A stretch of DNA of 18,395 bases from Pseudomonadota bacterium (GTDB lineage Bacteria; CALINM01), in contig JAOAGA010000027.1 of the NCBI GenBank assembly GCA_026415985.1, forward strand, positions 1-18,395. The letters are read 5' to 3'. Under the pieces are notes generated by a model, which had not been told where the DNA came from, did not search any database, and saw only the letters and a list, made by a program, of their open reading frames with translations. Positions within the stretch are counted from its first letter, which is position 1. Every line of letters begins with the position of its first letter. The position numbers and the translations under genes were made by a program. Below are positions 12,447 through 17,872 of this stretch, in pieces.

Positions 12447-12475
12447 TTTAAAATGAAAAAACTTATGTGTATAAT
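12447..12475 (+). promoter_or_regulatory. Promoter of trpB2
   Basis: TTTAAA (12447-12452), a 17-nt spacer and a perfect TATAAT (12470-12475) place the transcript start near 12482. The leader of about 34 nt contains AAGGAG (12502-12507), 8 nt before the ATG at 12516. No tryptophan-rich leader peptide or attenuator hairpin is seen. Confidence 0.5.
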
Positions 12476-12515
12476 ACTGGAAAATTATGAGGCAAAAACG
12501 AAAGGAGATGTTTAT

Positions 12516-13814
12516 ATGAGAAACTTTTACTTAAACGACAGCGAGTTACCTAAGCGTTGGTATAACATTTTAGCTGATATACCGGAGCCATTGGAACCAT
12601 ATTTAGATCCTCAGACTAAAGAGCCAGTTACGCCGGATAAACTAACACCAATATTTCCTATGTCACTTATTGAACAGGAAGTATCTGATAAGAAATGGAT
12701 AGATATCCCTGAAGAAGTTTTGGATATATACAGGTTATGGAGACCAACTCCTTTAAGAAGGGCAAAAAGATTAGAGGAGTATTTGAAAACTCCTGCAAAG
12801 ATATTTTTTAAAGATGAGAGTGTTTCTCCTCCGGGAAGTCACAAGCCCAACACAGCAATCCCTCAGGCTTATTACAACAAAAAGGAAGGCATTAAAAGAT
12901 TGGCTACAGAGACTGGAGCAGGACAGTGGGGGTCATCTCTGAGTTTTGCCTGTAATCTTTTTGGACTGGAATGTACAGTTTATATGGTGAAAGTAAGTTA
13001 TAATCAAAAACCCTACAGACGAATCCTGATGGAGACATGGGGAGGTAAGGTTATAGCCAGCCCAAGTAATCTTACCAACTCTGGCAGAGAAGTTCTTAAA
13101 AAAGATCCCGACAGTCCCGGAAGTCTGGGCATTGCCATAAGCGAAGCGGTTGAAGATGCGGCAACAAATGGCGATACCCATTATGCCTTGGGTAGTGTAC
13201 TTAATCATGTTCTTCTCCATCAGACAGTCATAGGTTTGGAAGCGAAAAGACAAATGGAGGAGATTAATTTATATCCCGATGTAGTTATCGGATGCGTTGG
13301 TGGTGGCAGTAACTTTGGCGGAATAGTTTTTCCCTTTCTTATGGATTATTTTGAAGGTAAGAAAAAAGGCACAAGGTTTATTGCGGTTGAACCTGCATCT
13401 TGCCCGACACTAACAAAGGGTAAGTTTGAGTATGATTTTGGTGATGTAGCGGGTCTTACACCTCTGATTAAAATGTATACCTTAGGTCATGACTTCGTTC
13501 CACCTTCTATACACGCAGGTGGGTTGAGATATCACGGTGATTCTCCTATTGTTTCTTACCTTGCTAATAAAAATTTTATTGAAGCAGTAGCCTATGAACA
13601 GACAAAAGTTTTCGAATCTGCATTAATATTTTCAAGAACAGAAGGAATTATACCTGCTCCTGAATCTTCTCACGCAATTAAATCTGCTATAGATGAAGCG
13701 ATTAAGGCAAGAGAAGAAAAGAAGGAAAAGGTAATTCTTTTTAATCTGAGCGGTCATGGTTATTTTGATCTAACTGCCTATGATGCCTTTTTAAGAGGGG
13801 AACTAAAGGATTAA
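12516..13814 (+). CDS. trpB: TrpB2-type tryptophan synthase beta chain
   Basis: This 432-residue PLP enzyme condenses indole (or another nucleophile) with a serine derivative to make tryptophan. K110 in GSHKPNTA binds PLP, and ETGAGQWG (132-139) holds the catalytic glutamate. The glycine-rich [11 protein letters not shown] binds the cofactor phosphate. The extended N-terminus ([20 protein letters not shown]) and the [15 protein letters not shown] segment mark the TrpB2 subgroup, which is longer than TrpB1 (~400 aa) and usually works without a TrpA partner. The start is set by AAGGAG 8 nt upstream. An in-frame ATG at 12453 lies inside the promoter and is rejected. The gene stands alone: no trpA, trpC or other trp gene is in the window, which fits an indole-salvage or auxiliary role. 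Confidence 0.93.
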
Positions 13815-14014: not shown

Positions 14015-15307
14015 TTGGCAGAAACACTACAGACATTCATAATAGAACTGGTTGACGGCCTCTTTTCAGAAGAGGTAAGCGTATCTAATCTCAAAAACGC
14101 CCTTAAAAAGACAGTGCTTTTCTTAGATGCCGATTGTGGCTGGATTAATTTATGGAAAGATAATTTCTCTTCAGGGCTTTTTCTTGAGTATAGTCTCCCT
14201 AAGGAAATAAAAGATTTAGAGTTAAAACTTCACAGAGATTGTCAATGTCAGAGGCTTTTTTTAGAAAACAGAGACTCTGATTTTTTTTATGTCCATGATT
14301 GCAAATTAGTTAGTAAAGCAGGTCTTGAGATAAAAAATATTATCGGTCATTTTTCAATACCCATAAGAACAAAATATGAGTTTGTAGCAACAATTAATTT
14401 GGGTTTTAGAGAAAAAAAATCTATTGAAAAAGAGGCAATCAGGTTTATCGCTAAAATATTTGGTTCAGCCCTGTCAAACTATATTTTTGTGAAAAGGCTT
14501 GAGGAAAAAAGTAAGCTATTAAACCAAAAAAGTAAAGATTTAGAGACACTTGTTACTGCAATTTCCCATGATATGAAAACCCCGTTGATAACAACAAAAG
14601 GTTTTCTTAACCTCATAGAAAAAAAGTATCACAGGAAAATGACAAAGGAACACCAGGGATATCTTAACAATATTAAAAAAGGGGTATCAAGGATAGAAGA
14701 ACTGGTGAAAGATTTGTTAAACCTGCGTCAAACGGAGAAATTGCTTAAGATACGGGAACATATTGATGTCAGAGAGGCTTTGAAATCTTCTCTAAGATAT
14801 ATAAGACCTCTCATCAGACATCGTTTGCCGAAGATTAAGATAGAAGGGAATCCTCCAAAACTTATAGGTAATAATCTTGCGTTCTTTCAGATTTTTACCA
14901 ATCTTATTGCCAATTCAATTAAATATACTCCCGACGACAGAATGCCAAGGGTAAATGTAATCTTTGAAGAAGATGATTACAACCATCTGATAATAATCAA
15001 AGACAATGGTATTGGTATGACTGAAAGGGAATTAAAGGAAGCATTTAAACCATTTAATAAGGTAAAAACAATAGATAGGGAAGGAAGCGGGGTTGGTTTG
15101 TCCATTGTTAAAAGAATAGTTGAAGGATTTGGAGGACGGCTTAAGGTTGAGAGTGAAAAGAACGTCGGAACGACCTTTAAAATCTATTGGGCTAAAAAAG
15201 AGAATACTGAAGATTTATATGCCGAAGGCGAGACTCGAACTCGCACGGGTTTGACCCCACTAGACCCTGAACCTAGCGTGTCTGCCAGTTCCACCACTTC
15301 GGCATAA
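14015..15307 (+). CDS. Cytoplasmic GAF-domain sensor histidine kinase, 3' end overlapping an antisense tRNA
   Basis: This 430-residue kinase has no membrane segment. Residues ~10-155 resemble a GAF sensor domain with cysteines C41, C76, C78 (HRDCQCQRLF) and C96. A coiled linker (160-180) leads to HisKA, with phospho-acceptor H185 in ISHDMKTP. The HATPase domain shows the N-box NLIANSIKY (296-304), G1 DNGIGM (330-335) and G2 GSGVGL (357-362). The kinase fold naturally ends near GTTFKIYWAKK (395). The remaining residues have no domain character, and residues 402-430 are antisense to the tRNA-Leu gene, with the TAA (15305-15307) just beyond it. The start is TTG, preceded by AAAGGGT. No response regulator is adjacent. 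The signal is unknown; the cysteines could bind a metal or sense redox state, which is inference. Confidence 0.85.
   Translation: MAETLQTFIIELVDGLFSEEVSVSNLKNALKKTVLFLDADCGWINLWKDNFSSGLFLEYSLPKEIKDLELKLHRDCQCQRLFLENRDSDFFYVHDCKLVSKAGLEIKNIIGHFSIPIRTKYEFVATINLGFREKKSIEKEAIRFIAKIFGSALSNYIFVKRLEEKSKLLNQKSKDLETLVTAISHDMKTPLITTKGFLNLIEKKYHRKMTKEHQGYLNNIKKGVSRIEELVKDLLNLRQTEKLLKIREHIDVREALKSSLRYIRPLIRHRLPKIKIEGNPPKLIGNNLAFFQIFTNLIANSIKYTPDDRMPRVNVIFEEDDYNHLIIIKDNGIGMTERELKEAFKPFNKVKTIDREGSGVGLSIVKRIVEGFGGRLKVESEKNVGTTFKIYWAKKENTEDLYAEGETRTRTGLTPLDPEPSVSASSTTSA
15220..15303 (-). tRNA. tRNA-Leu (anticodon CAG)
   Basis: Read from 15303 to 15220, GCCGAAG pairs with CTTCGGC as the 7-bp acceptor stem, followed by discriminator A. 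The D-arm is of the TGGCAGAC type. The anticodon arm is CTAGG-TTCAGGG-TCTAG with anticodon CAG (reads CUG). A class II variable arm (GGGT-CAA-ACCC) and a T-arm GCGAG-TTCGAGT-CTCGC complete the 84-nt molecule. CCA is not encoded. The gene lies entirely within the antisense strand of the histidine-kinase reading frame and has its own strong promoter at 15339-15312. Confidence 0.96.
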
Positions 15308-15311
15308 GGTT

Positions 15312-15339
15312 ATTATAACTTTTTCGCAGTAAAAGTCAA
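15312..15339 (-). promoter_or_regulatory. Promoter of tRNA-Leu(CAG)
   Basis: Reading the minus strand, TTGACT (15339-15334), a 16-nt spacer and a perfect TATAAT (15317-15312) end 8 nt before the mature tRNA 5' end at 15303. It is close to consensus. The -35 shares its outermost base with the ATG of the plus-strand aminopeptidase gene at 15339. Confidence 0.75.
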
Positions 15340-16391
15340 TGAGACAAATGATTAAGGTTATTGAAGATATATTGCAGATATCATTGGGAGTTAATAGTAA
15401 AGAAAGAGGGGTCATTTTTCTTGATGACTTCAACGGAGATGGTAAACTTGCAGAAAGAATTGAAATTGTTGATAAATTTCTTTTGGTTTCCGGAAACCTG
15501 GGTTTTAATTTAGAAAAAATTTCAATAAAAAATTCGGGAGGTAACGGCTTAGAACCGGATAAAACTTTATGGAGGTTTATATTTGGTGAAGATTTTATAA
15601 GACTAATTGAGGAAAAATACAGCTGGAAAGAGCTTACAGAAAAGAAAATTTCTTTGGAAGATTTGGAAAATTTTATTAAAAATTCGGGAAAAACTGATAT
15701 ACCAGACTTTATTATAGCCCTTTCATATTTTTCTACAAGTCATACCTCCTTCAGAAAAATATTAAATAAGTTTGGGACAAGATATGTAAGTATGCCCCTT
15801 TTTGATTTAAAGATGTTTGAGGGACCCCTTAATATAAACTTTGATGAACTTGAAAAAGATACTCTGGAGCTATGGGATAAATTAAAAGGCAAGAAGGGTT
15901 GTGTTATTACAAATAAATCCGGAACAAACTTAAAGTTTAGCTTTGGAAACAGAGTATTTAAGGCTGATACAGGTAATTTCAGAGAAAAGGGAAGTTTTGG
16001 CAATCTCCCTGCGGGTGAGGTTTTTATCGCACCGGTTGAAGATATGACAGAAGGAAGTTTGGTCATAGAGTGGACAAATGAAGGAAAGCTAAAAAAACCT
16101 CTATTGGCTGATATAAAAAATGGCAGGGTAGTTCGTTTAGAAGGTGATGAAAAGCTTAAAGACTATCTTGGCGAGATATTTAACCGTGACGGCAGAAATA
16201 ACTGCCTTTGTGAGTTAGGTTTGGGAACAAACAAAAGGGCTAAAAGAGCAGATAATATTCTTGAGGCTGAAAAAATATACGGAACTGCCCATATAGCCTT
16301 TGGCGATAATATCACCTTTGGCGGAGTCAACAGAGCAAGCACGCATATTGATTATGTAATTTTTAGTCCAGAGATAGAGTGGTATGGTTAA
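15339..16391 (+). CDS. M29-family-like leucyl aminopeptidase (COG2309)
   Basis: This 350-residue cytoplasmic metallo-aminopeptidase homologue would trim N-terminal residues from peptides. M29-type motifs lie in the C-terminal half: NLPAGEVFIAPVED (222-235, E227), a CELGLGTNKRA segment (E292), EAEKIYGTAHIAFGD (E311, H318) and ASTHIDYV (H336, D338). Together they give a plausible two-metal site. It is shorter than thermophile M29 enzymes (~400 aa), and some motif spacings differ, so enzyme activity is less certain than family. It begins 31 nt after the kinase stop with no Shine-Dalgarno sequence. ATG codons at 15339 and 15348 are both possible starts. Its last 8 nt overlap the HD-GYP gene. Confidence 0.78.
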   Translation: MRQMIKVIEDILQISLGVNSKERGVIFLDDFNGDGKLAERIEIVDKFLLVSGNLGFNLEKISIKNSGGNGLEPDKTLWRFIFGEDFIRLIEEKYSWKELTEKKISLEDLENFIKNSGKTDIPDFIIALSYFSTSHTSFRKILNKFGTRYVSMPLFDLKMFEGPLNINFDELEKDTLELWDKLKGKKGCVITNKSGTNLKFSFGNRVFKADTGNFREKGSFGNLPAGEVFIAPVEDMTEGSLVIEWTNEGKLKKPLLADIKNGRVVRLEGDEKLKDYLGEIFNRDGRNNCLCELGLGTNKRAKRADNILEAEKIYGTAHIAFGDNITFGGVNRASTHIDYVIFSPEIEWYG

Positions 16392-17298
16392 GGATAATCT
16401 TAAGATAACAAGAGATATTCACAGTATTAATGGTAAATTATTGGTATCAAAAAATGATCAGGTCGATACTGACAGAATTGAAGAGATTAGTAAAGAGGTT
16501 ATTGTAACAAGCAGAGTTTGGGTGAAACTTAAGGAGAGCTTTCTTTTTAATGACTTCTACCTTCAAACCCAAAGTCCGCCATACAATTTTTTCTGTAAAA
16601 AGTGCGGAGAACAGTTAATACTCAATATTTTTGGAAGTGTGGCGGTTCCCGTCTCAATTCTCGAAGAGTATCATTTTATGAGAATAAAAGATGATTATAC
16701 CTACAGGCATTCCATTAACTCCGCCCTGTTAACAATATGTATGGCAACACAGTTTTATGAAGACAGACAAAAGATAAATCAGATAGCATCTTCTTCTATA
16801 ACTCATGATTTAGGAAAATCAAGAATACCAAGTAATATTCTCCATTCTTCCCAGCCACTGACCGAGAAGGATTACTCTCTTATAAAAGAGCACACGATCT
16901 ACGGAGCGGTTTTATGCAGTTATTATTACGGCAACCCCTATTCCGAAAACACAATAGTTGCGTTGCAACACCACGAAAAGCTGAACGGAAAAGGTTATCC
17001 TCTCTCAATCAGGTTGAAAGACGATGTTGTAAGTTTTGTTGCAGTGGCAGATATTTTTGACGCTCTTATCTCAAAAAGACCCTATAGAAATGAGCCCTAC
17101 GATGTAAGAGGAGCAATAGATATTCTGTGTCAGTCAGTTGAGAGAGGAGAGATTGATGAGAAATATATAAAGATGATGATACACTTAAACAGAAGAGAAC
17201 CAGAATCACTTTTGAAAATAAGTTATTCAAAGGTTTACAGAGGCTACTATCCGAGAATAAACTATTATGGAATTAGAAGAGAAATATATTGCTCTTGA
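16384..17298 (+). CDS. HD-GYP domain protein, probable cyclic-di-nucleotide phosphodiesterase
   Basis: This 304-residue protein appears cytoplasmic, with no signal or membrane segment. The N-terminal ~95 residues are unassigned and contain a lone C71-x2-C74 (FCKKCGEQ). The HD-GYP domain is complete: H109 (YRHS), H141-D142 in THDLGKSRIP, H170 (KEHTIYGA), H196-H197 followed by NGKGYP (201-206), and D223 in VADIFDALISKRPYR. This metal-ligand set is that of active c-di-GMP or c-GAMP phosphodiesterases. No receiver domain is attached. The upstream orphan histidine kinase therefore cannot act on it by the usual phospho-relay without another partner. It overlaps the aminopeptidase by 8 nt and TrmB by 32 nt. 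Confidence 0.9.
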   Translation: MVKDNLKITRDIHSINGKLLVSKNDQVDTDRIEEISKEVIVTSRVWVKLKESFLFNDFYLQTQSPPYNFFCKKCGEQLILNIFGSVAVPVSILEEYHFMRIKDDYTYRHSINSALLTICMATQFYEDRQKINQIASSSITHDLGKSRIPSNILHSSQPLTEKDYSLIKEHTIYGAVLCSYYYGNPYSENTIVALQHHEKLNGKGYPLSIRLKDDVVSFVAVADIFDALISKRPYRNEPYDVRGAIDILCQSVERGEIDEKYIKMMIHLNRREPESLLKISYSKVYRGYYPRINYYGIRREIYCS

Positions 17299-17872
17299 TA
17301 AATCACTTCTGCGTTATTATTCCTACAACATCGAGAACTTATCGAAAAAAATGGAGATAAAACATTTAGAGATAGGCTTTGGCAACGGAGAGTATATTCT
17401 GAATTTTTCATTGCAGAAAAGTGATGAGTTTTTTTTAGGCATAGAATATTCAAAAAAATATTTTGAAAAAACGGTAAGAAGAATTGAAAAATACAAACTT
17501 AAAAATGTTAAACTTTTACACGGAGAAGCTTTCGCTTTGGTTTCATTTTTATTTCCCGATAATTATTTTGATTTTGTTCATATAAACTTTCCCGACCCCT
17601 GGCCTAAAAAAAGACATAATGAAAGAAGACTTATTAATATAAATTTTTCTCTTGAACTGAGAAGGATATTGAAAGATGATGGTAAGATTTTTTTTGCATC
17701 CGATTTCGAGGAGTATTTTTTAAACAGTGTTTCTATTTTTAAAAAAAGCGGTTTTTCTTTAGAGTATCTGTCCAATAGTCCTAATCCTGAAAGACTCTCA
17801 AAAACTAAGTATGAGAATGAGTTTATCAGGGAAGGAAAAAAAATTTTTTATAGTGTTTTAAAAAAATCTTGA
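17267..17872 (+). CDS. trmB: tRNA (guanine-N7-)-methyltransferase TrmB
   Basis: This 201-residue SAM-dependent enzyme methylates G46 in the variable loop of class I tRNAs. LEIGFGNGEYIL (36-47) is the SAM-binding motif, GIEYS the acidic strand, and FPDPWPKKRHNERRL (109-123) the TrmB signature with the catalytic aspartate. A C-terminal TKYE-x-EFIREG segment completes the active site. The length is at the short end of the family. Its first 32 nt lie inside the HD-GYP gene in another frame. No ribosome site is evident, so translational coupling is likely. The TGA is embedded in the -35 box of the next promoter. Confidence 0.94.
   Translation: MELEEKYIALDKSLLRYYSYNIENLSKKMEIKHLEIGFGNGEYILNFSLQKSDEFFLGIEYSKKYFEKTVRRIEKYKLKNVKLLHGEAFALVSFLFPDNYFDFVHINFPDPWPKKRHNERRLININFSLELRRILKDDGKIFFASDFEEYFLNSVSIFKKSGFSLEYLSNSPNPERLSKTKYENEFIREGKKIFYSVLKKS

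Follow-up and report, generated by a model that had tools for sequence, protein, structure and literature searches.

In the current analysis, we found that the reading frame of a histidine kinase runs through the whole of a tRNA-Leu(CAG) gene encoded on the other strand, and that the same nesting recurs in another genus of the phylum. Judged by the sequences of the two genera, this is a real, inherited overlap of two genes. Probably the kinase lost its stop codon long ago, and the loss was tolerated in a stop-free antisense frame of a functional tRNA together with the protein tail that results.

Results

The window (the whole stretch analyzed, 18,395 nucleotides) is one entire contig of a draft genome of 1.57 Mb, in 161 contigs and 84% complete. 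Comparison within the phylum drew on three genomes: that of the window (G000), one from another genus (G001), and G002. The kinase open reading frame (14015..15307, plus strand) has a TTG start and encodes 430 amino acids. It is a histidine kinase, with HisKA (PF00512; residues 177-239, 42 bits, cut-off 26.9) and HATPase_c (PF02518; residues 287-392, 82.5 bits, cut-off 26.4) both above their gathering scores. From the N to the C terminus, it comprises an unassigned N-terminal domain, HisKA, HATPase_c, a linker, and a tail antisense to the tRNA. In an AlphaFold model, the ATPase domain closes with a strand at residues 385-393. Between the end of this fold and the tRNA lies the unconserved linker (approximately residues 393-401; 15191..15218, plus strand), which contains a run of six A's, and the codons antisense to the tRNA (15219..15304, plus strand) encode the tail AEGETRTRTGLTPLDPEPSVSASSTTSA, which is predicted to be disordered. 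Digestion with trypsin would give TGLTPLDPEPSVSASSTTSA as the peptide diagnostic of this C-terminal end.

An earlier note on this DNA had described the frame as open across the whole tRNA with its first stop just past it, and indeed 14015-15307 is free of stops until the TAA at 15305-15307. Likewise, its description of residues 402-430 as antisense-tRNA sequence lacking domain character agrees with a fold that ends near residue 393, with the absence of any Pfam match, and with very low model confidence (pLDDT of ~35 for residues 397-430, which, with few aligned rows over the tail, is weak evidence alone). A functional domain in the tail was rejected on the lack of a Pfam match and this pLDDT, few rows being aligned there. 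Homologous kinases, paralogues from the same genome included, mostly stop within about 10 codons of the equivalent of residue 392, and few are longer; the window's kinase continues for 38 codons past this point and its G001 orthologue for 48.

The tRNA was called on the minus strand both by ARAGORN, as tRNA-Leu(cag) at 15219-15304, and by Rfam (RF00005; 15220-15303, 47.1 bits, cut-off 29). These calls agree on a complete tRNA-Leu(CAG) gene antisense within the kinase frame, as had been proposed. CCA is not encoded in this gene. As called by ARAGORN, 28 of the 111 tRNA genes in the three genomes end in CCA, and it seems that CCA is encoded for a minority of these genes at most. The narrow gap between the kinase and the peptidase that follows it holds, just ahead of the tRNA and in the minus orientation, a sigma70-type promoter-like site (15312..15339; TTGACT, 16 nt, TATAAT) whose -35 box adjoins the peptidase start codon. 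The G001 counterpart reads TTGACC, 17 nt, TATAAT, and each site matches the consensus at 11 of 12 positions. In both genera, the -10 box lies 7 to 8 nt ahead of the predicted tRNA 5′ end (15304-15317 in the window), so the leader of tRNA-Leu(CAG) would be very short; for tRNAs with a recognizable -10 box in the three genomes, the distance from box to 5′ end is mostly 9 to 16 nt. We looked on the minus strand for an intrinsic terminator 3′ of the tRNA and found none, so the tRNA precursor probably extends antisense into the kinase.

On the plus strand, an M29-type (thermophilic metalloprotease) aminopeptidase gene (15339..16391) begins some 35 nt away from the 5′ end of the tRNA. It is followed in a tight gene cluster by a gene for an HD-domain protein (16384..17298), which overlaps the peptidase gene, and by trmB, encoding tRNA (guanosine-46-N7)-methyltransferase (17267..17872). 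A search of the kinase-peptidase junction in G000 found no promoter-like site on the plus strand, and transcription of the peptidase would therefore probably come from upstream, across the tRNA. Upstream of the kinase, the window carries a TrpB-like PLP enzyme of the TIGR01415 family (12453-13814). In G001 and G002, the upstream neighbor of the kinase is not this enzyme but an unrelated minus-strand gene, so that a conserved order is known for the downstream side only.

Scanning contigs with the single kinase sequence gave no match, while a profile scan recovered two relatives along with remote kinases. In G001, the kinase is split between contigs, with its N-terminal part on C22 and its C-terminal part on C21. 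There it is followed by tRNA-Leu(CAG) on the minus strand, an M29-type peptidase, an HD-domain protein, and a TrmB-like frame, the last two being named through their similarity to the window's genes. The peptidase is thus syntenic in the two genera, with an identity of 45%; the kinase is 56% identical to that of G001 over the common C-terminal part and 47% identical to that of G002. The G002 contig ends at kinase residue 373, ahead of the junction, which makes only two lineages informative, and no peptidase was found in G002. At the end of the G001 kinase, the sequence ...FFIRIPMVAAN is followed by AEGEIRTRTGLTPLDPESSVSASSTTSA, which passes through the tRNA in the same register, and then by INTLYFDKQKRSIR and a TGA that overlaps the peptidase ATG as TGATG (L041:621-625). 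The peptidase start is homologous in G000 and G001, lying at an equal distance ahead of a shared SLGV motif. The G000 kinase stops 31 nt before the peptidase ATG, with no stop-start overlap. The earlier note had suggested asking where the stops of orthologous kinases fall and whether all of them end before the tRNA; that of G001 passes the tRNA as well.

Between the genera, the tRNA is 98% identical. One of its two differences turns a G-U pair of the anticodon stem into A-U and the other lies in the T arm; both fit the tRNA, and both alter a residue of the kinase tail (T to I, P to S). The linkers that join the ATPase fold to the tRNA in the two genera cannot be aligned, and they differ in length by a multiple of three, namely four codons. 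The sequences therefore show selection on the tRNA but none on the tail. From these sequences there is no sign of protein selection on the tail, which looks like a tolerated by-product. At 36% GC, with about 0.07 stops per codon, the expected chance that a linker is free of stops is 0.49 for 10 codons and 0.65 for 6 codons. Given that the linkers are open in both lineages, that the register is matched twice, and that G001 has its TGATG, pure neutrality needs some luck, and this leaves room for weak selection for read-through.

To judge how unusual the locus is, we took a census of tRNAs on the fetched stretches of G000, G001, and G002. Among 111 tRNAs, 143 of 333 antisense frames (43%) were free of stops. 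Chance openness was rejected as the surprising part, such frames being common. For the tRNA-Leu(CAG) considered here, each genus has exactly one open antisense frame out of three, and the kinase occupies that frame. Frames of at least 100 codons that enter a tRNA antisense were seen only at this locus and in the G001 orthologue. The unusual part is the gene arrangement and not the openness of the frame. Outside the phylum, some 107 tRNAs in three genomes were examined for antisense overlap, and a single genuine case was found, a DUF218-domain gene of G012 (L225:1501-2354, minus strand) that stops 39 nt inside an antisense tRNA-Arg(UCU) and has the tail ...REDSNLRPTD. In G023, a frame of 132 codons covers tRNA-Trp, but it matches no Pfam family and may be spurious.

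Discussion

In the reading that we favor, the kinase lost its stop long ago. The starting point would be a functional tRNA-Leu(CAG) gene with a promoter of its own, placed on the minus strand where the kinase and the M29-type peptidase meet within a tight plus-strand cluster. The kinase stop between the ATPase domain and the tRNA would have been gone before the two genera separated, and translation of the kinase would since have passed through the single stop-free antisense frame of the tRNA, ending just past it in G000 or exactly at the peptidase start in G001. Since the need for a working tRNA constrains the sequence here, a new stop would be unlikely to arise inside this segment, and the kinase would retain a tolerated, unstructured tail of 28 residues. 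Presumably, kinase and peptidase are cotranscribed across the tRNA, and the tail would be made and be neutral. This account is supported by the gene order and open register held in common with another genus, by the retention of promoter-like sites with 11 of 12 consensus positions, by a fold that ends at residue 393 ahead of a tail with a pLDDT of ~35, and by the unrelated parallel of the G012 DUF218 gene ending inside an antisense tRNA-Arg. Two options had been put forward in the earlier note. The first, a kinase left with a meaningless tail after losing its stop, is supported by homologues that stop near residue 392 and by the low model confidence of the tail. The second, that kinase transcription is put to use as antisense to the tRNA, is a far less probable reading, taken up below.

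It could also be that read-through is itself selected, in that it couples the translation of kinase and peptidase, the tail being the price of the coupling. Ribosomes would then cross the antisense tRNA and its promoter to reach the peptidase start. The TGATG overlap in G001 and the homologous position of the peptidase start in G000 would fit such coupling, as would the failure to find a plus-strand promoter-like site at the G000 junction and the overlaps among the downstream genes. However, the 31 nt between stop and ATG in G000 leave no stop-start overlap there, and that of G001 could be due to chance, at roughly 5% by an estimate from stop frequency. On balance, we regard selected coupling as unlikely. 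Still less probable, in our view, is an arrangement in which the tRNA and its promoter would lie wholly antisense within a translated kinase frame whose stop is coupled to the next gene, with transcription obligately opposed and the expression of the two genes mutually balanced.

A further possibility is antisense regulation, in which strong transcription of the tRNA against the kinase-peptidase mRNA, or the reverse, would lower kinase expression or tRNA supply, by analogy with noncontiguous operons and excludons. The nesting is conserved in two genera, and a strong promoter-like site, also conserved, faces into the kinase, which makes overlapping transcripts likely; the lack of a detected intrinsic terminator after the tRNA points the same way, as the precursor probably reaches antisense into the kinase. 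Judged from the layout, interference between the kinase and tRNA transcripts is plausible. Against regulation, several Leu tRNA genes exist and the mature tRNA is tightly folded. We consider regulation of this kind distinctly improbable as the explanation of the locus.

The overlap might instead be an artifact of sequencing or assembly, the true kinase stop preceding the tRNA. At window positions 15189-15202 (GCTAAAAAAGAG), a -1 slip would make the kinase terminate at ...WAKKREY*, short of the tRNA, and so would one extra A, as might be added in the run of six A's (near 15193-15198). The run has no counterpart in G001 between the IRIP motif and the tRNA, and yet G001, which belongs to another genus and was assembled independently, shows the read-through too, which makes an artifact very unlikely. 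A sequencing error or missed stop, named earlier as what would overturn the observation, is accordingly not what we found, and the statement that no earlier in-frame stop exists stands: the G000 frame is open to 15305, and the G001 orthologue likewise reads through. Scarcely credible is the notion that many kinase messages are cleaved or end prematurely where they meet the antisense tRNA and that the resulting nonstop messages are cleared by tmRNA tagging as a brake on kinase level, for although the stop sits behind a well-folding RNA segment (z of -2.1) and ahead of a convergent promoter, an antisense strand that folds well is trivially expected opposite a tRNA, whose structure it mirrors.

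Returning to the old loss of the kinase stop, its product can be compared with known systems. Databases repeatedly contain peptides antisense to tRNAs, which AntiFam serves to remove as spurious (PMC9710616), and Bakta filters shadow ORFs along tRNA genes (PMC8743544). Like members of the AntiFam class, the kinase tail is an antisense translation of a tRNA. Unlike them, it sits on a genuine, conserved kinase that has no earlier stop in either genus, and a nearly identical tail is present in G001, so the extent of the ORF has not been misannotated; only the tail resembles the class. A noncontiguous operon, in the definition given in PMC9239193 (after Saenz-Lahoya et al. 2019), is an operon containing a gene on the opposite strand. 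Its outer genes share a transcript that overlaps the inner gene, and in noncontiguous operons, as in excludons, the opposing transcripts regulate each other. As far as gene order goes, the row of kinase, tRNA (minus), peptidase, HD-domain protein, and TrmB has the layout of one in G000 and G001, an oppositely oriented gene being nested within a same-strand row. Relative to that definition, the present case differs in that the opposite gene is a tRNA and overlaps the preceding coding sequence, and the likeness is one of gene layout. The G012 DUF218 gene shares with the kinase a genuine 3′ end antisense within a tRNA gene, but it stops 39 nt into the tRNA, whereas the kinase spans the whole tRNA and does so in two genera. 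Our search, from which most subscription journals lay outside, returned literature on AntiFam, shadow ORFs, and noncontiguous operons, and in it no conserved coding sequence spanning a whole antisense tRNA was described. The nesting of kinase and tRNA is a conserved example of an already known kind.

A protein frame can thus cross the full length of an oppositely oriented tRNA gene and persist across genera, and pipelines that treat each overlap of a coding sequence with a tRNA as an error could shorten or discard genuine genes. Should the transcripts of kinase and tRNA interfere with each other, a signaling operon would be linked to tRNA supply.
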